Assembly: GCF_900187885.1 (NCBI RefSeq)
Contig: NZ_FYEK01000027.1
Span: 87,630-151,629, forward strand
Reading direction: 5' to 3'
From: Thermoflexus hugenholtzii JAD2
Lineage (GTDB): Bacteria > Chloroflexota > Anaerolineae > Thermoflexales > Thermoflexaceae
DNA: 64,000 bases
In this document: piece after piece, positions 30,982-50,570 of the stretch
How the letters are laid out: each line of letters opens with the position of its first letter
Numbering within the stretch: position 1 is the stretch's first letter
The notes under the pieces: generated by a model
Seen by the model: the letters and a program-made list of their open reading frames with translations, nothing else
What the model was told of the DNA's origin: nothing
Database searches by the model: none
Program-made: the position numbers and the translations under genes

Positions 30982-32550
30982 ATGACGGCGCTGGAGCTGG
31001 ACGGCGAACATCTCACCCTGGAGGATGTGGTGGCGGTAGCCCGGGGACGGCGCCCGGTGGCCCTGGCCCCCGAGGCCTGGGCTCGGGTCCGACGAAGCCG
31101 GGAGGCGGTGGAGCGATTGCTCGCCCGGGGGGCGGTGATCTACGGGGTGACCACCGGGTTCGGACACCTGCGGAACATCCGCATCTCCCCGGAGCAGGCG
31201 TCGCTTCTGCAGCACAACCTGTTGCAGAGCCACGCGGTCGGGGTGGGGCCGGAGCTCTCGGAGGAGCAGGTGCGGGCGATGATGGTGGCCCGGCTGAACT
31301 CCCTGGCCCGGGGCCACTCCGGGGTCCGCCCGGAGGTCCTCCAGCTGCTCATCGAGATGCTCAACCGGGGGGTCCATCCCGTGGTCCCGGCCCAGGGCTC
31401 CCTGGGGGCCAGCGGGGACCTGGCGCCGCTGGCCCATATGGCGTTGCCGATGATCGGCCTGGGGGAGGCCATCGTCGGGGGCCGGCGGCTGCCCGGAGCC
31501 GCCGCCCTGGAGGCGGCGGGGCTGCGGCCGCTGCGGCTGGAGGCCAAGGAGGGCCTGGCCCTGATCAACGGGACGGCCTTCATGGCCGGGATCGGCGCCC
31601 TGGTCACTTACGACGCCGAGATCCTGGTGCAGACCGCGGATGTGGTGGGGGCGATGACCCTGGAGGCCCTGGAGGGATCCGTCGTCCCCTTCGACGAGCG
31701 CCTCCACCGGGTGCGGCCCCATCCCCGGCAGATGGACTGCGCGGCGTTCCTGCGGGCGCTGTTAGAGGGCAGCGAGCTGCTGAGCGATCCCCAGCGTCCC
31801 TCCCGGGTGCAGGATGCTTACTCCCTGCGCTGCATGCCCCAGGTGCACGGCGCGGTGCGGGACGTGGTGGCCTACGCCCGCTGGGCCCTGGAGATCGAGC
31901 TGAACAGCGCCACAGACAACCCGCTCATCTTCTGGGAAGAGGGGGAAGCGGAGCCCGCGGTGCTGTCGGGGGGGAATTTCCACGGCGAGCTGATCGCCCT
32001 GGCCATGGATTACCTGGCCATCGGCCTGGCGGAGCTGGCCAACATCTCGGAGCGCCGCCTCAACCGGCTGCTGGATCCGGCGGAGAACGAAGGGCGGTAT
32101 CCCCCCTTCTTGGCCCTGGACCCAGGGCTGCATTCCGGCTTCATGCTGGTGCAGTATACGGCGGCGGCCCTGGCCTCGGAGAACAAGGTGCTGGCCCACC
32201 CGGCCAGCGTGGACACCATCCCCTCCTCGGCGAACACGGAGGATCACGTGAGCATGGGCGCCACGGCCGTGCGCCACGCGGAGATGGTGTTGCGCAACGC
32301 CCAGCGGGTGGTGGCTGCGGAGCTGTTCGCAGCGGGCCAGGCCATCGACCTGCGCCGGCGGCAGGCCGGGCGTCCGCTGCGGATGGGGAAGGGGACGGCG
32401 GCGGCCTACGCCCTCCTCCGCCAGCACGTGCCCTTCCTGGAGGCGGACACGGTGATGGCGCCGTGGATGGAACGGGCCTGCCGGCTGGTGGCGGAAGGAC
32501 ACCTCCTGCGCGCCGCCCGAGAGGGGATCGCCGGATTGCGCGCCGAATGA
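30982..32550 (+). CDS. hutH: histidine ammonia-lyase
   Basis: 522-aa lyase that converts histidine to urocanate, the first step of histidine use. The MIO cofactor triad A143-S144-G145 is in GSLGASGDLAPLAHM. Further signatures are YGVTTGFG and QDAYSLRCMPQVHGA. ACAGGAGG precedes ATG 30982. No other hut genes are visible. The last codons (ARE-AE-stop region, GCCGAATGA) fall in the first hairpin of the repeat array at 32539, so the natural C-terminus may have been altered by insertion. Confidence 0.93.
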   Translation: MTALELDGEHLTLEDVVAVARGRRPVALAPEAWARVRRSREAVERLLARGAVIYGVTTGFGHLRNIRISPEQASLLQHNLLQSHAVGVGPELSEEQVRAMMVARLNSLARGHSGVRPEVLQLLIEMLNRGVHPVVPAQGSLGASGDLAPLAHMALPMIGLGEAIVGGRRLPGAAALEAAGLRPLRLEAKEGLALINGTAFMAGIGALVTYDAEILVQTADVVGAMTLEALEGSVVPFDERLHRVRPHPRQMDCAAFLRALLEGSELLSDPQRPSRVQDAYSLRCMPQVHGAVRDVVAYARWALEIELNSATDNPLIFWEEGEAEPAVLSGGNFHGELIALAMDYLAIGLAELANISERRLNRLLDPAENEGRYPPFLALDPGLHSGFMLVQYTAAALASENKVLAHPASVDTIPSSANTEDHVSMGATAVRHAEMVLRNAQRVVAAELFAAGQAIDLRRRQAGRPLRMGKGTAAAYALLRQHVPFLEADTVMAPWMERACRLVAEGHLLRAAREGIAGLRAE

Positions 32551-32835
32551 ATTCGGCCTGGGGGGCCTGTGGCCAACGGTCGGCCTGCGCCGACCGGAAA
32601 GGCGTTCTTTGCGTCGGCGGAGGCCGGCGCTTGGCGCGAAAGCGCCTTTGGAGGCCGATTTCAATCGGCGGGGAGGCCTTTGGCCGGCGGTCGGCCTGCG
32701 CGCCGAATCAATTCGGCCTCGAGAGGCCTTCGGCCAACGGTCGGCCTGCGCCGACCGAAAAAAGCGTTGGTGGAGGCCGATGCGGATGTGCAGCGTGGGG
32801 AGGAGGTCCGTTTCAATCGGGGTGAAAGTCTTCGG
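32539..32835. repeat. multi-hairpin repeat array 1 (subfamily A)
   Basis: Contains GCCGAATGAATTCGGC (32542-32557), GGTCGGCCTGCGCCGACC (32578-32595), GCCGATTTCAATCGGC (32654-32669) and GCCGAATCAATTCGGC (32702-32717), plus degenerate copies. All are 6-bp stems with four-base loops, or close variants. The order of elements recurs in array 4 at 50.1 kb. Open frames through it repeat words such as GRPAP and ADRK and look non-coding. It fills most of the gap 32551-32952. Confidence 0.85.
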
Positions 32836-32952
32836 CATGAGGGCCGACGGATCCCCTCGCGCATTTGCCCGGGTTCGTGACCAGGGGGCGTCCCGCCAGA
32901 GGCTCCGTGAAAGCCGAGTCCGATCTATGGATCGAGGAGAGATGGTTTGCGT

Positions 32953-34089
32953 ATGAGAATCGCTCGAAAGCGCATCGCCCGGATGACCCGAATCGGGTGG
33001 TGGATAGGCTCGCGGGTGATGCTTCTGACCGCGCTGGGGGTCGTCCCTGCCGCAAGCGGCCTGCCCCGGCTCCGCCTGGATCCGCCCCGGGCGCCGGCGC
33101 CTTCCCCTTCCGTTGTGGGGATCCACACGCGGGTGACCGATGAGGTGGATCCCGCTCGGATCTACCGAACGTTTCAGATGGCCCGGGCCATGGGCGCGGA
33201 CTGGGTGGTGGAGTTCTTCCCGTGGCCCTATCTGGAACGGGCCCCCGGCCGCTTCGATTGGTCCCACAGCGACCTGCGGATCTTCCTGGCCCGGCGGGAG
33301 GGGTTACGGGTCATCGCCCGGCTGGGGATGGTGCCGACCTGGGCCCGCCCCTGGCGCGCCCCGGCCACTTACCTGGGGCCGGAGGCGGTCCTCCCCTTCG
33401 CCCGGTTCGCCGCCGCCTTCGCCGCCCGCTACCGGGATCAGGTGGCCGCCCTGGTGATCTGGAACGAGCCCAATCTCTACATCGAGTGGGGCGATCGGCC
33501 GCCGGACCCTGCCTTCTTCGTCGCGGTAATGCGGGCGGTCTATCAGGAGGTGAAGGCGGCCGCGCCGGAGGTGCCGGTGCTGGCCGGCGGGCCGGCGCCC
33601 ACCCTGGAGGACTCCCCGCGCGCGATGAACGACCTGCGGTTCCTGCGGGAGGTCTACGCCCAGGGCATCGCCGCGTACTTAGATGGCTGGGCGATGCATC
33701 CTTATGGGTTCGGGAACCCGCCGGAGGAGCCGCCGGACCCCGGGCGCCTGAACTTCCGACGGGTGGAGCTGATGCGGGCGATCATGCAGGGCTATGGGGA
33801 CGATCGGCCGATCTACATCACCGAGACCGGCTGGAACGAATCGCCTGAATACGATCACGGCCTCCCGCCGGAGGTGCGGGCGGATTACACGGTGCGCGCC
33901 TATGAATACGCGCGGCGGAACTGGCCGTGGTGCCCGGTGGTGGCGATGTGGGCCCTGCGCTACCCATGGCGGGAAGATCCGGTCCTCGAAGGATACGCCT
34001 TCCTGGATCTGGATTTCCGGCCCCGCCCCGTCTACGAGGCTGTTCGGCGTTACACCCACGGCGAGCGATCCATCGATACAAATCGATGA
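32953..34089 (+). CDS. secreted clan GH-A glycoside hydrolase-like protein
   Basis: 378 aa. An N-terminal hydrophobic signal/anchor (TRIGWWIGSRVMLLTALGVV) precedes a (beta/alpha)8 barrel related to GH39/GH5. The acid/base is E172 in IWNEPNLY and the nucleophile E291 in YITETGWNE, both in canonical clan GH-A contexts. The substrate is unknown; an extracellular glycan is likely. Start ATG 32953 follows GAGGAGAG by 12 nt, and TTG 32947 is an alternative. It lies between the repeat array and hom, on the same strand. Confidence 0.8.
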   Translation: MRIARKRIARMTRIGWWIGSRVMLLTALGVVPAASGLPRLRLDPPRAPAPSPSVVGIHTRVTDEVDPARIYRTFQMARAMGADWVVEFFPWPYLERAPGRFDWSHSDLRIFLARREGLRVIARLGMVPTWARPWRAPATYLGPEAVLPFARFAAAFAARYRDQVAALVIWNEPNLYIEWGDRPPDPAFFVAVMRAVYQEVKAAAPEVPVLAGGPAPTLEDSPRAMNDLRFLREVYAQGIAAYLDGWAMHPYGFGNPPEEPPDPGRLNFRRVELMRAIMQGYGDDRPIYITETGWNESPEYDHGLPPEVRADYTVRAYEYARRNWPWCPVVAMWALRYPWREDPVLEGYAFLDLDFRPRPVYEAVRRYTHGERSIDTNR

Positions 34090-34169
34090 ATGATTCGAAG
34101 GGGATGGCCGGCTGTGGATGTGGTAAACTGGCCTCCACATTGCTCAGCATCGATGACGAGGAGGGGAAG

Positions 34170-35216
34170 ATGACCCGTTCTCTGCAACGCGTAGCCCTCA
34201 TCGGGTTCGGGGCGGTGGGGCGCGCCTTCGCCCGGCTGCTCCTGCGCAAGCGCGAGGAGATCCTCCAGCGCTACGCGCTGGACCTGCGGGTCACCGGGAT
34301 CATCACCGCCCGCCGGGGGGCGGCCTGGGATCCCGAGGGGCTGGACCTGACCGCCGCCCTGGAGGCGGTGGAGCGGGGCGGGGATCTGAGCGCCCTCAGC
34401 CGGAGCCCGGCGCCCCGGGAGACCCTGGCCTTCATCGAGCGGTGCCCGGCGGATGTGGTCGTGGAGATCACCGTCCTGGATCCGCGCACCGGACAGCCGG
34501 CCACGGACCACGTTCGGGCGGCCCTGCGCTCGGGTCGGCATGTGGTGACCGCCAACAAGGGCCCCCTGGCCTTCGCCTACCGGGAGCTGCGGGACCTCGC
34601 CCGCTCCCGCGGCCGGGCCTTTCTCTATGAATCCACCGTGATGGACGGCGCCCCGCTCTTCAGCCTGGTCCGCGAGGGGCTGCCGGCCACCCACATCCTG
34701 GGCTTCCGGGCTATTCTCAACAGCACCACCAACTTCATCCTCACCCGGATGGAGGAGGGGATCCCCTTTGAGGAGGCCGTGCGGCAGGCCCAGGCCATCG
34801 GGATCGCCGAGGCCGATCCATCGAATGACATCGATGGATGGGACGCAGCGGTCAAGACGTGCGTGCTGGCCAATGTGTGGATGGAGGCGGATCTGCGGCC
34901 GGATGCGGTGGAGCGGACCGGCATCCGGGGGATCGGGCCGGAGGACCTGGCGGCGGCGCGGCGGGAGGGGCGCCGGATCCGGCTGGTGTGCACGGCGGAG
35001 CGCTCGGCGGACGGGACGGTGCGGGCCCGGGTGGCCCCGGAGGCCGTCCCCCTGGAGGACCTGCTGGCCCACGTGCGGGGGACCTCCTCCGTGATCACCC
35101 TGCGCACCGACACCCTGAAGCAGCTCACCCTAATCGAGCACGAGCCCGAGCCGGCCCAGACGGCCTTCGGCATCCTGGCGGACCTCATCAACGTCGCGCG
35201 GGGCCATTGGGGATAG
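34170..35216 (+). CDS. hom: homoserine dehydrogenase
   Basis: 348-aa NAD(P)-dependent enzyme reducing aspartate semialdehyde to homoserine, on the route to Thr and Met. The Rossmann motif is GFGAVGRAFARLL at the N-terminus, then HVVTANKGPLA, and the catalytic-domain hallmark GFRAILNSTTNFIL...EADPSNDIDGWDAAVK. The C-terminal ACT regulatory domain of longer forms is absent. ATG 34170 follows GAGGAGGGG. The stop is followed at once by repeat array 2. Confidence 0.92.
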   Translation: MTRSLQRVALIGFGAVGRAFARLLLRKREEILQRYALDLRVTGIITARRGAAWDPEGLDLTAALEAVERGGDLSALSRSPAPRETLAFIERCPADVVVEITVLDPRTGQPATDHVRAALRSGRHVVTANKGPLAFAYRELRDLARSRGRAFLYESTVMDGAPLFSLVREGLPATHILGFRAILNSTTNFILTRMEEGIPFEEAVRQAQAIGIAEADPSNDIDGWDAAVKTCVLANVWMEADLRPDAVERTGIRGIGPEDLAAARREGRRIRLVCTAERSADGTVRARVAPEAVPLEDLLAHVRGTSSVITLRTDTLKQLTLIEHEPEPAQTAFGILADLINVARGHWG

Positions 35217-35476
35217 GGACCGCTGATCGGAATCGGCCCTGGGAGGTGCTTGCGCGCCACGTGCCGGCCTCTTGTGCCGATGGAGATCGGCCTCGCGGGG
35301 CGCTTGGTGCCGGGCGTCGGTCTGCGCCGACGGGGAAAGCCTTTTTGGCCGGCGCAGGCCGGTCACTGGCCGAAGGCCCATGAGGTCGAATTCACTTGAC
35401 GCCCGGAGGCCGGCCATCCGGGCGAGAGCCCGTGGGGTCGAATGCATCCAACCCCTCCCGAGGCCGGAGAGCTGCC
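35217..35476. repeat. multi-hairpin repeat array 2 (subfamily B)
   Basis: The core 35266-35400 includes GCCGATGGAGATCGGC (35276-35291) and the word CCCATGAGGTCGAATTCA. It closely matches array 3 in the same orientation. Together arrays 2 and 3 bracket the Uma2 gene. It occupies the whole gap between hom and that gene. Confidence 0.8.
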
Positions 35477-36127
35477 TTAGCGGTTGCGTTGCTCGATCTC
35501 CTCCAGACACTCCTTCGCCGAGGGGAGGGGATCCTGCCACAGCCATTCCACTCGCAGAGCGAAGCCCCGCACCGCGACGCTGGACACCCATCCGGCGGTC
35601 ACCCGCTCCGCCTGGTAGGTCTCTCCGGACTGCCGATACACCCAGAGCTCCCGATGCTCGGGATCCACCACCCAGTATTCCGGCACCCCTGCCTGGGCGT
35701 AATCCTGGGCCTTCTCCTCCCGATCGAGGGTGCGGGTGGAAGGGCTGGTCACTTCGATGATGAGCACAGGGCGCACCGTAAGCGGGACGCCCCGGGCATG
35801 GGGGATGTCTTCCGGGGCCAGCACGAACACATCGGGCTCCCGTACCACGTCCGGCAGGATCTGGAGGGCCGCCGGGCCGGTCAGGGCTTCGCCCCACCGG
35901 GTTCGCTCGCAGAACTCCTGGAGCAGCCGATACAGGAAGCCGACCAGGCGCTGGTGTTCGGCAGTAGCTGGCGAATGCACCAGAACCTCCCCGCGGGCGA
36001 ATTCCCAGATCTGATCCTCCGGGGCCTCCGTTAGATAGCGCTCCAGGGTCCAGCCCCCGATTCGCGCGAGATAGGGAGCCTCGAAAGTGCGCGGCCGATC
36101 CGTCCACACCACCATTTTCACGCCCAT
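35477..36127 (-). CDS. Uma2-family (DUF820) putative endonuclease, copy 1
   Basis: 216-aa PD-(D/E)xK-fold protein. Signature blocks are REPDVFVLAPED and VLIIEVTSPSTRTLDREEKA, followed by QDYAQAGVPEYWVVDPE, the standard Uma2 active-site region with D, E and K. Biological role is unknown; the family is greatly expanded in Chloroflexota and cyanobacteria and spreads horizontally. It is flanked by direct copies of repeat subfamily B (35266-35400 and 36351-36466), which may mark an inserted cassette. A second copy lies at 48896. Confidence 0.85.
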   Translation of the reverse strand: MGVKMVVWTDRPRTFEAPYLARIGGWTLERYLTEAPEDQIWEFARGEVLVHSPATAEHQRLVGFLYRLLQEFCERTRWGEALTGPAALQILPDVVREPDVFVLAPEDIPHARGVPLTVRPVLIIEVTSPSTRTLDREEKAQDYAQAGVPEYWVVDPEHRELWVYRQSGETYQAERVTAGWVSSVAVRGFALRVEWLWQDPLPSAKECLEEIEQRNR

Positions 36128-36256
36128 GGATCCGCCCCCTGGGTTTGACGTCCTCTCGTGACCTCACAGCCGGCGGGTTCTCCCAGGCCCCTTATTCCTT
36201 ACGTTCCCTTCCATCGTATGGTATGCCCAGGAGAGGGTCAAGGCCTTCCCGTGGGT

Positions 36257-36480
36257 TTTCCCGCGGGGCCGAATCGGTCTCCGGTGGGCCATCGGCCTTC
36301 TGAGGCGTTTACGTGAGAGGCGCGGGTCCTCGCTGATGGCTGGCGCCGGAGGCCTCTTGTGCCGATGGAAATCGGCCTCGCGGGGCGCTTGGCGCCGGGC
36401 GTCGGCCTTCGTCAACGCAAAACGCCTTTCGGCCGGCGGAGGCCCATGAGGTCGAATTCATTCGACACCCCCCTCGCCTC
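36257..36480. repeat. multi-hairpin repeat array 3 (subfamily B)
   Basis: The core 36351-36466 contains GCCGATGGAAATCGGC (36361-36376) and the word CCCATGAGGTCGAATTCA and matches array 2. It is about 20 bp shorter. It fills most of the gap 36128-36483 upstream of the Uma2 gene. Confidence 0.8.
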
Positions 36481-36483
36481 CCA

Positions 36484-37974
36484 TTACTGCCTCTTTCGCC
36501 ACACCTGGGCCCGCATCCCCTCGAACTCCTTCTCCCAGCGGGGATCCTCCTCCAGGGCCCGGGCCAGCTCCTCCTGGAGGACTTTGTCGATCAGCAGGCG
36601 GTCGACCCCGTAGCGCGCCAGCCGCTCGTGGTAGCGGGACGCCCGGGAGATCCAGACGTAGTCCAGCCACAGCTCGTAGGGGTAGAGCTCCACCCGGGGG
36701 TCCACGAAGACCTTCTGCTCCGGCAGGGCCCAGATCAGGTAGCTGCCGTAGCCCATCTCGTTGAACAGGCGCCCGCCGGGGCGCGCCCGCAGGTATTCCA
36801 CCGCGTCCACCGGCGTCTCGACCCCGACCAGCGGCCCGACGGGGTGCCCCCGCCACACCTGCCGCCAGTAGGCCTCCGGCAGGGGGATCCGCTCTACCCA
36901 CCAGGGCTGCACGGCGAGGACGGGCAGGAAGAGCAGGGCGGCGAGGAGGGCGTTGAGCGGGCGGGGCGGCGGGCTGGGCCAGGGCCACGGCGGCAGGGCC
37001 CCGGCCAGCAGCCGGGCCAGGATGGGAGCGGCCACCATCCCGAACCAGATCACGTAGCGCTGGCCGTTCCAGGCCAGCCAGAGGAAGGCGACGAGCAGCA
37101 GCGCCTCGGTGGGGGAGAGGCGGTGGCGGGAGTAGGCGAGGGCCAGCAGCAACACCAGGATGCTCCCGTAGAACGTGACGTTGGCGATCCCGTGCGGGGT
37201 GGGGGAAGCCCACTCCACCACCAGGGTCTGGCTGGGCCGGTCGGTGAGCAGGCGGTGGACGTAGCCCAGGATCCCGATCCCCTGGGGGTTGAGGAGCAGG
37301 GCCAGCAAGGTGAGAGCGGCGGTGCCTGCCAGGGGGCGCAGGGTGGAGAGCGGGCGCTGCCCGAGGAGCGCCTCCAGGGCCCCGCCCGTCAGGAAGAGGA
37401 GCAGCAACACCGGGCCCAGGATGAAGGCCCCGTGGGCGTTGACCCAGAAGGCCATCAGCGGGGGGAGGAGGAGGAGGGCCCTCGGGCGCAGGGCGCCCTC
37501 CCGGAAGCGGGCGAGGAGGAGGTAGAAGATCGCGAAGGGCACCCAGGACCAGATCTGGGGGCGCAGCACCAGGTTGTTGAGGGCCATGCCGGCGGCCAGC
37601 GTGAGGGCCAGGGCGGCCAGGCGCCCGGAGCCGCTGCGGCGCTTCGCCTCCCATCCGATCAGGGCGAAGGCCGCGAGGGCCAGGAGGTTGCGGGCGAAGG
37701 TGGGAAGCGGAAGCCCCCCGGCGCGGTAGAGCCAGGCGAGGAGGACCTCCCCCAGCCAGGCCCCGTAAGTGAAGGGGGCATCCGGCGGCAGGGTCCAGCC
37801 GAACATGTTCGTAGCAGGGATACGCCGCTCATCGAGGATGAGCGCCCCGATCTTCAGGTGCCACCAGAAATCGTTGGGGGGCAGTGGCACCAGCGAGACC
37901 AGGACCCCGAAGGCCGCAAGGACCACAGTGAACCAGAGGAGGTCGATGGAGGCCCTTATCCCGTGGGTCCGCAT
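36484..37974 (-). CDS. polytopic membrane protein, GT-C glycosyltransferase-like
   Basis: 496 aa, with about ten to twelve hydrophobic segments and a soluble C-terminal ~110 residues. The N-terminal loop after helix 1 has PPNDFWWHLKIGALILDERR, with an acidic residue where GT-C enzymes place their catalytic Asp. The C-terminal part (RARPGGRLFNEMGYGSYLIW, VFVDPRVELY) is typical of a conserved Chloroflexota family of uncharacterised membrane proteins. It is the last gene of a six-gene membrane cluster and overlaps the preceding gene by 19 nt. Confidence 0.7.
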   Translation of the reverse strand: MRTHGIRASIDLLWFTVVLAAFGVLVSLVPLPPNDFWWHLKIGALILDERRIPATNMFGWTLPPDAPFTYGAWLGEVLLAWLYRAGGLPLPTFARNLLALAAFALIGWEAKRRSGSGRLAALALTLAAGMALNNLVLRPQIWSWVPFAIFYLLLARFREGALRPRALLLLPPLMAFWVNAHGAFILGPVLLLLFLTGGALEALLGQRPLSTLRPLAGTAALTLLALLLNPQGIGILGYVHRLLTDRPSQTLVVEWASPTPHGIANVTFYGSILVLLLALAYSRHRLSPTEALLLVAFLWLAWNGQRYVIWFGMVAAPILARLLAGALPPWPWPSPPPRPLNALLAALLFLPVLAVQPWWVERIPLPEAYWRQVWRGHPVGPLVGVETPVDAVEYLRARPGGRLFNEMGYGSYLIWALPEQKVFVDPRVELYPYELWLDYVWISRASRYHERLARYGVDRLLIDKVLQEELARALEEDPRWEKEFEGMRAQVWRKRQ

Positions 37975-39122
37975 GGCATTTCTTTCTCCGGGAGATGGTT
38001 CGGCATCGCCGCGCCGCGCCGGGCCAGGAGGACCCAGCCCAGCAGCACCGAGCCTGCCCAGAAGTAGAAGATCTGAGGCATGGAGGTGAACAGGAGGATC
38101 CCGTTCAGGAGCCCATAAGCCAGGATCAGCCCGAGACGTCGGGGCGCAGGGGAATGCGAAATCAGATGGTAGAAGGCAGGGATCAGCCCGACGAGCGCCA
38201 GCGGCAGGTCGAAGGTCCAGCCGTATGCCGCTGTCGCCAGGGAGATCAGCGTCCACAAGGGGATCTCCGAGATGGAGGGGCGGTAGCGCAGCCAGAGCCC
38301 CAGGCCGATGAGGGGGGGAAGGAACTGGAGGGCTACATACGAGGGGCCGATCAGCAATCTCAGGAAGCCTCCCAGGGTCGCAGTGGCCCAATCGGCGGGC
38401 GGGTGGTGTTGCCAGGCGTGGAGATACTGTTCGAAGACCGCGGGTTGCAGAAGCCCGGAGAGGGCGGAGGCTCCGGCCACGGCGGCGAACAGCCCGAGGG
38501 CGAAGCCGGGTTTCCGTTGCCGGATGGATTCGGCCAGCAGGGTCAGGAGCACGAGATAGGCCAGGTGGGGCTTCACCAGCAGGAGGGCGGACCAGAGCCC
38601 GGCCCGGAAGGGATGGCGCGGGAACGCGCGCATTGCCTCGACCAGGGCGGGCAGCATCAGCGGCGTGATCTGACCGGCTTTGAGGGCGTGGAGCGCCGGC
38701 GCGAAGGTGAAGACCAGGGCCCAGACCCCCCACGGCCGCGCCGGCCGGACGTGGAGGGAGCGGCTCAATTGCGTCCCGCTCCAGGCGAGGGCGGCCAGCT
38801 GAAGGAGGAACCACAGGCTGCGAGCGAGGGGATAGGGCAGCGCACCGAAGGGGACGAGGAGCGCCAGGACCCATGGGGGGTTCCACAGCATGACGGCTTC
38901 CTCCAGTGGGCGCCCCGCTTCCCGTTCGAGGCGGAGCAACTGTTCTGGATCGTAAGGGTTGCCGCCGGTGAGGGTCAGGCGGCCGGCCGCCCAGTATTCA
39001 ACGAAGTCATCCAGGCGGATGAAGGATGGAGAGGTCAGGATCCGCTCGGAGAGCGCAAAGAGCATGGCGCCCGCAGCGATCAGCAAGGGCCATCGCATGA
39101 CCCGATAGACCGTCCCCCGCAT
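37956..39122 (-). CDS. GT87-family (DUF2029) membrane glycosyltransferase
   Basis: 388-aa polytopic protein with the GT87 layout: first loop DDFVEYWAAGRLTLTGGNPY with an acidic residue, then MLWNPPWVLALLVPF, LKAGQITPLML and SALLLVKPHLAYL. Characterised relatives are polyprenol-phosphate-mannose-dependent mannosyltransferases. ATG 39122 is preferred (AAGGAG 9 nt upstream) over 39146/39152. It is part of the six-gene cluster. Confidence 0.75.
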   Translation of the reverse strand: MRGTVYRVMRWPLLIAAGAMLFALSERILTSPSFIRLDDFVEYWAAGRLTLTGGNPYDPEQLLRLEREAGRPLEEAVMLWNPPWVLALLVPFGALPYPLARSLWFLLQLAALAWSGTQLSRSLHVRPARPWGVWALVFTFAPALHALKAGQITPLMLPALVEAMRAFPRHPFRAGLWSALLLVKPHLAYLVLLTLLAESIRQRKPGFALGLFAAVAGASALSGLLQPAVFEQYLHAWQHHPPADWATATLGGFLRLLIGPSYVALQFLPPLIGLGLWLRYRPSISEIPLWTLISLATAAYGWTFDLPLALVGLIPAFYHLISHSPAPRRLGLILAYGLLNGILLFTSMPQIFYFWAGSVLLGWVLLARRGAAMPNHLPEKEMPCGPTG

Positions 39123-48895: not shown

Positions 48896-49465
48896 TCATA
48901 GATCTCGGAACAAGTCCTCCAGGTCGACCTCCAGGCCCGGGATCAGGCCGCTGCGCACCCGACCCTTCCCCCGGGCGGTATCGGCCAGCACGAACCGCTC
49001 CCCCTCCAGCCGGTAGACCTCCACCCGCTGGGTGTCCGGATCGACCACCCAGTACTCCTGCACCCCGGCCTGGGCGTAGTCGTAGCGCTTCTCCAGCAGA
49101 TCCAGATGGGCCGTCGAGGGGGACAGGATCTCCACGATGAGGTCCGGCGCCCCCTCGATATGGGTCTCCCGCAGGCGGTCCGCGTGCTCTTTCAGGACGA
49201 CCAGGAGGTCGGGCTGGTAGACGGTGTCCTCCCGCAGCTTCACGTCCAGCGGCGCGTCGTAGACCCATCCGATGCCGGCTCGACGCACCGCCTCGACGAG
49301 CAGGAGCTCCAATCGCAGGGAGATTTCCTGATGCCTTCGGGATGGCGATGGGCTCGGCATGGGCACCCCCCGAACGAGGATCCAGTAGCCCGGTTGAGTC
49401 TCCGTCCACCGTCGGAAGTCCTCGTAGCGTTCGAACCGCAGGCCCTCGGCGATCGCGCGCGCCAT
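48896..49465 (-). CDS. Uma2-family (DUF820) putative endonuclease, copy 2
   Basis: 189 aa with YQPDLLVVLKEHAD, LIVEILSPSTAHLDLLEKRY and DYAQAGVQEYWVVDPDTQRV. It is related to, but clearly divergent from, the copy at 35477. It is compactly arranged between def (18 nt) and trxB (15 nt) and therefore probably cotranscribed. No repeat subfamily B flanks it. Function unknown. Confidence 0.85.
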   Translation of the reverse strand: MARAIAEGLRFERYEDFRRWTETQPGYWILVRGVPMPSPSPSRRHQEISLRLELLLVEAVRRAGIGWVYDAPLDVKLREDTVYQPDLLVVLKEHADRLRETHIEGAPDLIVEILSPSTAHLDLLEKRYDYAQAGVQEYWVVDPDTQRVEVYRLEGERFVLADTARGKGRVRSGLIPGLEVDLEDLFRDL

Positions 49466-50124: not shown

Positions 50125-50570
50125 GCGGGGTCGAATGAATTCGGCCTGGGGAGGCCTTGGGCCGATGGTTGACCTGCGCGCCGAATGAATTCGGCCTTGG
50201 AAGGCCTTCGGCCGACGGTCGGCCTGCGCCGACCGGAAGAGTGTTCTTTACGTCGGCGGAGGCCGACGCTGGGCGCGCCAGCGCCTTGGAAGGCCGATTT
50301 CAATCGGCGCGAAGGCCTTCGGCCGACGGTCGACCTGCGCCGACCGGGAAGGCGTTCTTTACGTCGGCGGAGGCCGACGCGTGGCGCGCAGCGCCCCTGA
50401 AGGCCGATTTCAATCGGCGTGAAAAGGCCAACGCGGGGCGCGGAGCACGCCGAAGGAATTCGCCCTTGGTCGGAGGCATTCGTGTGTTCGTGTCTCTATT
50501 TGTGGACGGCCCGCCGCGACCGGTGAGGCCCTGGTAGGCTGCTGGCAGGCCGAAATGAATTTCGGCTTCC
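50125..50570. repeat. multi-hairpin repeat array 4 (subfamily A)
   Basis: Largest array. Elements include GCCGAATGAATTCGGC (50180-50195), GCCGATTTCAATCGGC (50293-50308 and 50403-50418) and GCCGAAATGAATTTCGGC (50549-50566). The module GGCCTTCGGCCGACGGTC recurs at 50203 and 50314, giving a unit of about 110-111 bp in 2 complete and 2 partial copies. It occupies the 640-bp gap between def and the PPDK-N gene. The same modules occur at 32.5 kb. Confidence 0.85.

Follow-up and report, generated by a model that had tools for sequence, protein, structure and literature searches.

As described in the available portions of two accounts, TnpAREP/RAYT systems or REPtrons, such as those of E. coli, comprise a Y1 transposase gene present as a single copy, with palindromic repeats around it which are also dispersed in the genome and which form inverted pairs known as REPIN or BIME (PMC6006769, PMC8266576). 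In the available part of their survey, Quentin et al. 2018 give for Y1 subclass 1.2 the signature Y---Q--HH, a low copy number and a position near IS200 TnpA; the subclass is described there mostly from Cyanobacteria and Bacteroidetes, and the REP associations named there involve class 3 and, within class 2, some of its subclasses, but not subclass 1.2 (PMC6006769). The GTAG/CGTC palindromic repeats, of which the GTAG type has been reported in Chloroflexi, are presented in the accessible text as dispersed palindromes, often dimers, made of single hairpins of 20-40 bp with an unpaired tetranucleotide tag at one end (PMC3733652). In the accessible part of the Thermoflexus genome paper, repeats are mentioned only as a CRISPR count (PMC8129789). 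The literature covered, with few subscription journals among it, held no report of the repeat described below, nor of REPs with subclass 1.2.

The window, a stretch of 64,000 nucleotides from Thermoflexus hugenholtzii JAD2, contains an Uma2 family gene between two copies of a hairpin-rich repeat. We read the locus as part of a REPtron-like system with a TnpA of subclass 1.2 type at its core, and it is this system that makes the locus of interest, the story of the Uma2 gene itself being ordinary. The features concerned are as follows.

32537..32822, minus strand: two further copies of the repeat family (nhmmer), of which 32537-32676 has the dialect of its own genome
34164..35216 (putative start), plus strand: homoserine dehydrogenase gene, left border of the interval (PF00742 and PF03447)
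35266..35404, plus strand: repeat copy A, a six-hairpin unit (nhmmer 121.5 bits, model positions 1-139)
35423..35456, plus strand: partial extra copy of the last hairpin of the unit (68% to the tail of copy A)
35477..36127, minus strand: Uma2 family gene, 216 aa (PF05685, 122 bits)
36351..36474, plus strand: repeat copy B, with an internal deletion (nhmmer 108.7 bits, model positions 1-143)
36484..38046 (putative start), minus strand: membrane-protein gene, right border, syntenic in congener G001, T. japonica, T. sinensis and T. tengchongensis
50128..50426, minus strand: two further copies and a fragment, with a second Uma2 gene at a distance of about 0.7 kb (nhmmer; 50175-50315 has the dialect of its own genome)

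The homoserine dehydrogenase shows 88-94% amino acid identity in eight congeners (Thermoflexus, Chloroflexota, the closest named records), and the product of the right-border gene had no Pfam match at E 0.001. Copies A and B sit between convergent genes, the dehydrogenase ending at 35216 and the membrane-protein gene at 36484. They match over 79 ungapped nucleotides at 87% identity (35266-35344 against 36351-36429) and have a common tail, CCCATGAGGTCGAATTCA, while about 20 nucleotides are deleted within copy B; at 110 bits the match of A to B is far above chance. The initial annotation had described them as direct copies in the same order and orientation with Uma2 alone between them, and its coordinates, order and orientation are borne out, the Uma2 ORF being the sole plausible gene between the copies. 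Beyond this, with copy A as the query the repeat family was matched at 59 places of the own genome, copy B being the closest to A, and it occurs at two more places of the window, 32537-32822 and 50128-50426. Several ORFs listed for positions 32463-36415 of the window cross repeat stretches and are presumably spurious.

Over the window and 32 fetched stretches of the own genome, a profile of the family gave 64 non-overlapping matches, and 46 of these are almost complete. With a covariance model, the matches listed number 123 in the own genome, at least 150 in G001, 129 in T. japonica, 2 in T. sinensis, 70 in isolate 629H.11 (G004), 37 in SKYG36 (G005), 0 in SKYB22 (G006), 12 in isolate JZ-3 (G007) and 132 in T. 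tengchongensis (G008), counts that may contain opposite-strand matches as the unit is near-palindromic. Alignment of 61 copies resolved the unit of about 140 bp into six hairpins, namely h1 (GCCGATTGAAATCGGC), h2 (GGCGC..GCGCC) and h3 (GCGTCGGC..GCCGACGC) followed by h4, h5 and h6. Pairing is kept in 97.7% of 2190 cells, and both sides of a pair have changed in 45 cells, where shuffles give 11.7 and slid controls no more than 9. When the first half was compared with the reverse complement of the second, the mean local score was 21.8 against 8.5 for shuffled sequence; each of 61 units exceeded its own shuffle mean. The two halves are thus reverse complements in architecture, which makes the unit a pair of triple-hairpin modules in inverted orientation, h1-h2-h3 followed by h3'-h2'-h1', and so the REPIN/BIME design on a larger scale. 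Single-strand folding of copies A and B is only weakly better than that of shuffles (z -1.1 and -1.8), and it is strong in one T. japonica unit and one other unit of the own genome (z -3.9 and -4.4). The tetranucleotide GT[AG]G is not conserved at the hairpin feet, with 23 occurrences anywhere in 61 units on both strands, and is absent from the consensus of the linker. Besides, an Rfam search of window positions 31000-52000 gave no structured RNA over gathering thresholds, by which a known structured RNA was ruled out as the identity of the repeat.

The Uma2 product matches PF05685 at 122 bits against a Pfam cut-off of 27, the PADLOC candidate defence models PDC-S03 (E 4.8e-28) and two solved chains, 9y1l and 6okh. 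The initial annotation had supposed a special tie between Uma2 genes and the repeat and had offered that the putative nuclease may act on the repeats; in its fullest form this would make the repeats Uma2's own, as ends or targets of a mobile unit that carries the gene. The gene is indeed bracketed here and in its T. tengchongensis ortholog, but among the 23 Uma2 loci of the own genome (26 matches after merging of fragments) just one has the repeat on both sides, and three have it within 1.5 kb where 1.0 is expected (binomial P 0.075), so that proximity does not rise over chance. Likewise, among 30 fetched Uma2 loci of the genus the repeat was found in the flank of only three: the window gene (L084), its T. 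tengchongensis ortholog (L085) and L109. G001 and T. japonica have the repeat in abundance but no close ortholog of the window Uma2 (best 62-63% identity), and nothing therefore suggests that the nuclease acts on the repeat. The outer limits of the bracketed segment are array units rather than unique ends. On contig C22 of the own genome a gene unrelated to Uma2, a 427 aa ORF (L066) which by eye we take to be a mannose-1-phosphate guanylyltransferase, also lies between two same-strand copies; together with the chance-level proximity of Uma2, this makes the bracketing a product of an abundant same-strand repeat and not a trait of Uma2. The repeats belong to a dispersed family and not to Uma2, in all likelihood a mere passenger in an array that has decayed, and ownership of the repeats by Uma2 is already largely refuted and in our judgement very improbable. 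For Uma2 a tempting but wrong link is removed and, if the reading favoured below is true, a testable one, exchange via repeat arrays, would take its place.

The second Uma2 gene in the window (48920-49423) has repeats (50128-50426) about 0.7 kb off on one side only. In the own genome several of the 26 matches to Uma2 are incomplete, broken into pieces or interrupted by an in-frame stop, so that the family seems to be decaying there as well as multiplying.

The interval between the dehydrogenase and the membrane-protein gene takes different forms in the congeners. It measures about 110 bp in T. sinensis with neither repeat nor Uma2, consists in G001 of about 1 kb of other sequence without the repeat, spans about 2.3 kb without the repeat in SKYB22, and holds in T. 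japonica a repeat array with a transposase inside and no Uma2. In T. tengchongensis an array next to the right-hand gene contains Uma2 and the dehydrogenase lies on another contig, with repeats following it there too. In G004, G005 and G007 the right-hand gene was not found in the fetched stretch, and the interval is not readable across. Recombination through the repeats, which had also been put forward for this locus, is in part upheld: alleles lacking Uma2 exist in T. sinensis and T. japonica, and the lower synonymous divergence of Uma2 and a foreign repeat dialect, both given below, suggest exchange, but the single-repeat scar that excision should leave was seen in none of the genus genomes with a readable interval. 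The G001 interval (L076, 3470-4520) looks by eye like a toxin-antitoxin pair, with a small antitoxin and a toxin of PIN type.

On the T. tengchongensis contigs C79 (L154) and C10 (L153), arrays link both the dehydrogenase and the Uma2 cassette with genes that have other locations in congeners. These genes (ORFs of 1046 aa and 605 aa) are, in congeners where they were found, on other contigs or far from the interval, so that the joins may be either repeat-mediated rearrangement or misassembly, the two being indistinguishable on these positions. A clean repeat-mediated inversion was dropped, as the positions of both ORFs fit rearrangement or misassembly. The joining of different genes at the same repeats is what would be expected if metagenome assembly had fused unrelated contigs at repeats, and the arrangement at the locus itself could then be an artefact; this appears improbable, since the adjacency of Uma2 and the right-hand gene is independently present in T. 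tengchongensis and each unit at the locus stands as a single copy of about 120-140 bp.

The T. japonica array occupies the same interval as copies A and B; within it an ORF for an IS200-like Y1 transposase (TnpA) has seven units, full or partial, to either side. The best three of nine Y1 matches in the genus (T. japonica, SKYG36 and G001) lie within arrays of the unit, which count 14, 4 and 12 copies, full or partial, and the other six are without it. These three loci are at different places, the gene being beside the dehydrogenase in T. japonica, at 1.83 Mb in G001 with the dehydrogenase at 0.51 Mb, and on contig C380 in SKYG36 with the dehydrogenase on C278. The three proteins are 77-82% identical and all carry the Y---Q--HH signature; they score 58.3-66.6 bits with the NCBIfam IS200 model (cut-off 55) and 25-27 bits with the RAYT model REP_Tyr_transpos (NF047646), below its cut-off of 80. 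A three-sequence profile found TnpA in three of nine genus genomes with a single match each, and neither the Y1 search nor this profile detected it in the own genome. Among the matches listed, TnpA occurs in three of the six genomes with at least 37 unit matches and in none of the three with at most 12; the three unit-rich genomes that have no TnpA count against its link to the repeat.

A classical IS element around Uma2 was ruled out, the own genome being without a Y1 transposase. At two of the genus Y1 loci without this unit (L149 and L147) the flanks also carry repeats.

Relatives of TnpA are present in 105 of 298 genomes of the class. At 25 of 28 class loci (the best 30, less L174 and L197 with short flanks), several of them from the same genera and hence not independent, a repeat of at least 45 bits is shared by the left and right flanks, against none of 22 dehydrogenase controls (23 supplied, one dropped for a short flank). 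These repeats are mostly direct and lie within a few hundred bases of the TnpA gene; two loci (G067 and G034) have none, and that of G226 falls just under the threshold. Uma2 loci, of which 8 of 30 have a left-right flank repeat, were probably inflated as a control by adjacent Uma2 paralogues and by the window locus, and the dehydrogenase loci were therefore used instead. Hairpins cover 37% of the class flank repeats against 3% of the remaining flank sequence, the coverage of the repeat exceeding the control at 22 of 24 loci and reaching at least 30% at 16 of 25, and the Y---Q--HH signature is found at 28 of 30 loci. G276 and G063 show clear inverted-pair symmetry; in G073 it is weaker yet over shuffles, in SKYG36 barely over them and in G257 not over them. 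For these five units, which are outside the alignment of 61, the best-scoring split point was taken and the shuffles were fixed to that split, which favours the real sequence. The flank repeat is dispersed in G073 (31 matches), and in G276, which is of another genus and 72% complete, it occurs only at the transposase. The pairing of TnpA with flanking repeats appears widespread in the class Anaerolineae.

The units might instead be static hairpins, serving as transcription ends, mRNA stabilisers or nucleoid sites and spread by gene conversion and tandem duplication, with TnpA as a passenger that landed in their arrays. The position of A and B between convergent genes fits such a role, as do the tendency of units from the same array to cluster (in a tree without support values) and the many copies retained by the own genome without a transposase. 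That all three of the closest transposases lie in arrays at different genomic places, and that the pairing of transposase and repeat recurs across the class with different repeat sequences, makes this explanation unlikely.

A covarying pair in hairpin 4 distinguishes dialects of the repeat. Its C-G form is found in copy A and in all seven rows each of T. japonica and T. tengchongensis, and its T-A form in 37 of 41 rows of the own genome and all six of G001; copy B retains the C arm and has lost the other, and two further own rows are C-A. Copies A and B also cluster with those of T. japonica and T. tengchongensis in a tree that has no support values. The Uma2 gene has 92% DNA identity to its T. 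tengchongensis ortholog, and its pS of 0.228 (95% interval 0.165-0.293) is lower than that of the dehydrogenase (0.313) or the right-hand gene (0.330), with bootstrap fractions of 0.027 and 0.0075 respectively. The neighbour genes of the window are nearer to G001 (dS 0.23 and 0.21), the interval of which is without the repeat. The third-position GC of Uma2 is 0.81 against 0.91 and 0.93 for the neighbours. These sequence comparisons suggest that the Uma2 cassette and its array were exchanged between lineages; the signal is modest, coming from a single gene pair in which Uma2 may just evolve differently, and the T. tengchongensis dehydrogenase and Uma2 used in it are on different contigs.

In a variant of this last step, A and B could be old vertical relics of an ancestral array, and Uma2 could have arrived ahead of the species split and not been exchanged since. 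Copy A is 83% identical to the closest T. tengchongensis copy, about the same as the sequence upstream of Uma2 (83%), as vertical descent would have it, but the synonymous divergence of Uma2 lies below that of both neighbours and the closer G001 has no array in the interval. Descent of this kind is a possibility to be taken seriously, though we do not favour it.

The reading we favour, to which we give a probability of roughly 0.7, is that the locus is a decayed REP-like array whose units are mobilised by the Y1 TnpA of relatives, with Uma2 as a passenger probably exchanged via the units. Copies A and B would be the remnants of an array of units between the dehydrogenase and the gene at 36484. 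By analogy with TnpA-REP, the units would be non-autonomous, and a single-copy IS200-like Y1 TnpA would recognise their single-stranded hairpins, cut them and spread them. The gene for this enzyme is housed in the unit arrays of relatives, the window genome having the repeats and no detectable TnpA, owing to which we infer the mobility of the units here from relatives. The weak folding of A and B, the class loci that have no flank repeat and the confinement of the G276 repeat to the transposase also speak against this reading. Uma2 would be a passenger in the interval whose T. japonica array houses TnpA; homologous recombination between units from the arrays of two lineages probably introduced or exchanged it. 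As array units run head to tail, a gene landing in an array automatically comes to lie between direct repeats. Of all this, the repeat family with its six hairpins and inverted-pair symmetry, the place of TnpA in arrays, the shared interval and the lack of TnpA in the window genome are shown, and mobilisation of the units by TnpA and the way in which Uma2 came here are inferred.

More tentatively, and with somewhat less than even confidence, we propose that the subclass 1.2-type Y1 transposases of Anaerolineae have a REPtron of their own, mobilising long inverted pairs of multi-hairpin modules without a GTAG guide, probably through recognition of the hairpin loops, and with arrays that act as recombination pads for the swapping of single genes, such as the candidate defence gene Uma2, between species. 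If true, a REP-like system would be linked to an IS200-type transposase from a branch of the family in which we found no description of one, with an element design that differs in its multiple hairpins and in lacking a GTAG guide. It would also offer an independent case for testing what Y1 recognition needs and why the genes are single-copy.

Set against known systems, the one described here stands closest to the REPtrons. With them it shares a single-copy Y1 gene flanked by its own repeats (3 of 3 loci in the genus and 25 of 28 class-wide, the window genome being without the gene), the dispersal of these repeats (59 matches in the own genome, at least 150 in G001) and the inverted pair of the REPIN/BIME (every one of 61 units scoring over the mean of its shuffles). 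It differs from them in that its TnpA scores as IS200 and not as REP_Tyr_transpos, that there is no GTAG guide, and that each half of the unit has three hairpins and not one. The GTAG/CGTC repeats resemble the units as dispersed and often dimeric palindromes, whereas the units are about 140 bp long with six hairpins, and no GTAG tag was found in them. The IS200/IS605 insertion sequences share the transposase core, reflected in the score with the NCBIfam IS200 model, but instead of multiple near-identical copies there is here one gene per genome, in three of nine genus genomes, and it is the flanking arrays that are multi-copy. Y1 subclass 1.2, to which the TnpA would belong by its signature, has in common with it this signature, the low copy number and the closeness to IS200 TnpA; described mostly from Cyanobacteria and Bacteroidetes, this type is met here in Anaerolineae and in the company of REP-like repeats.
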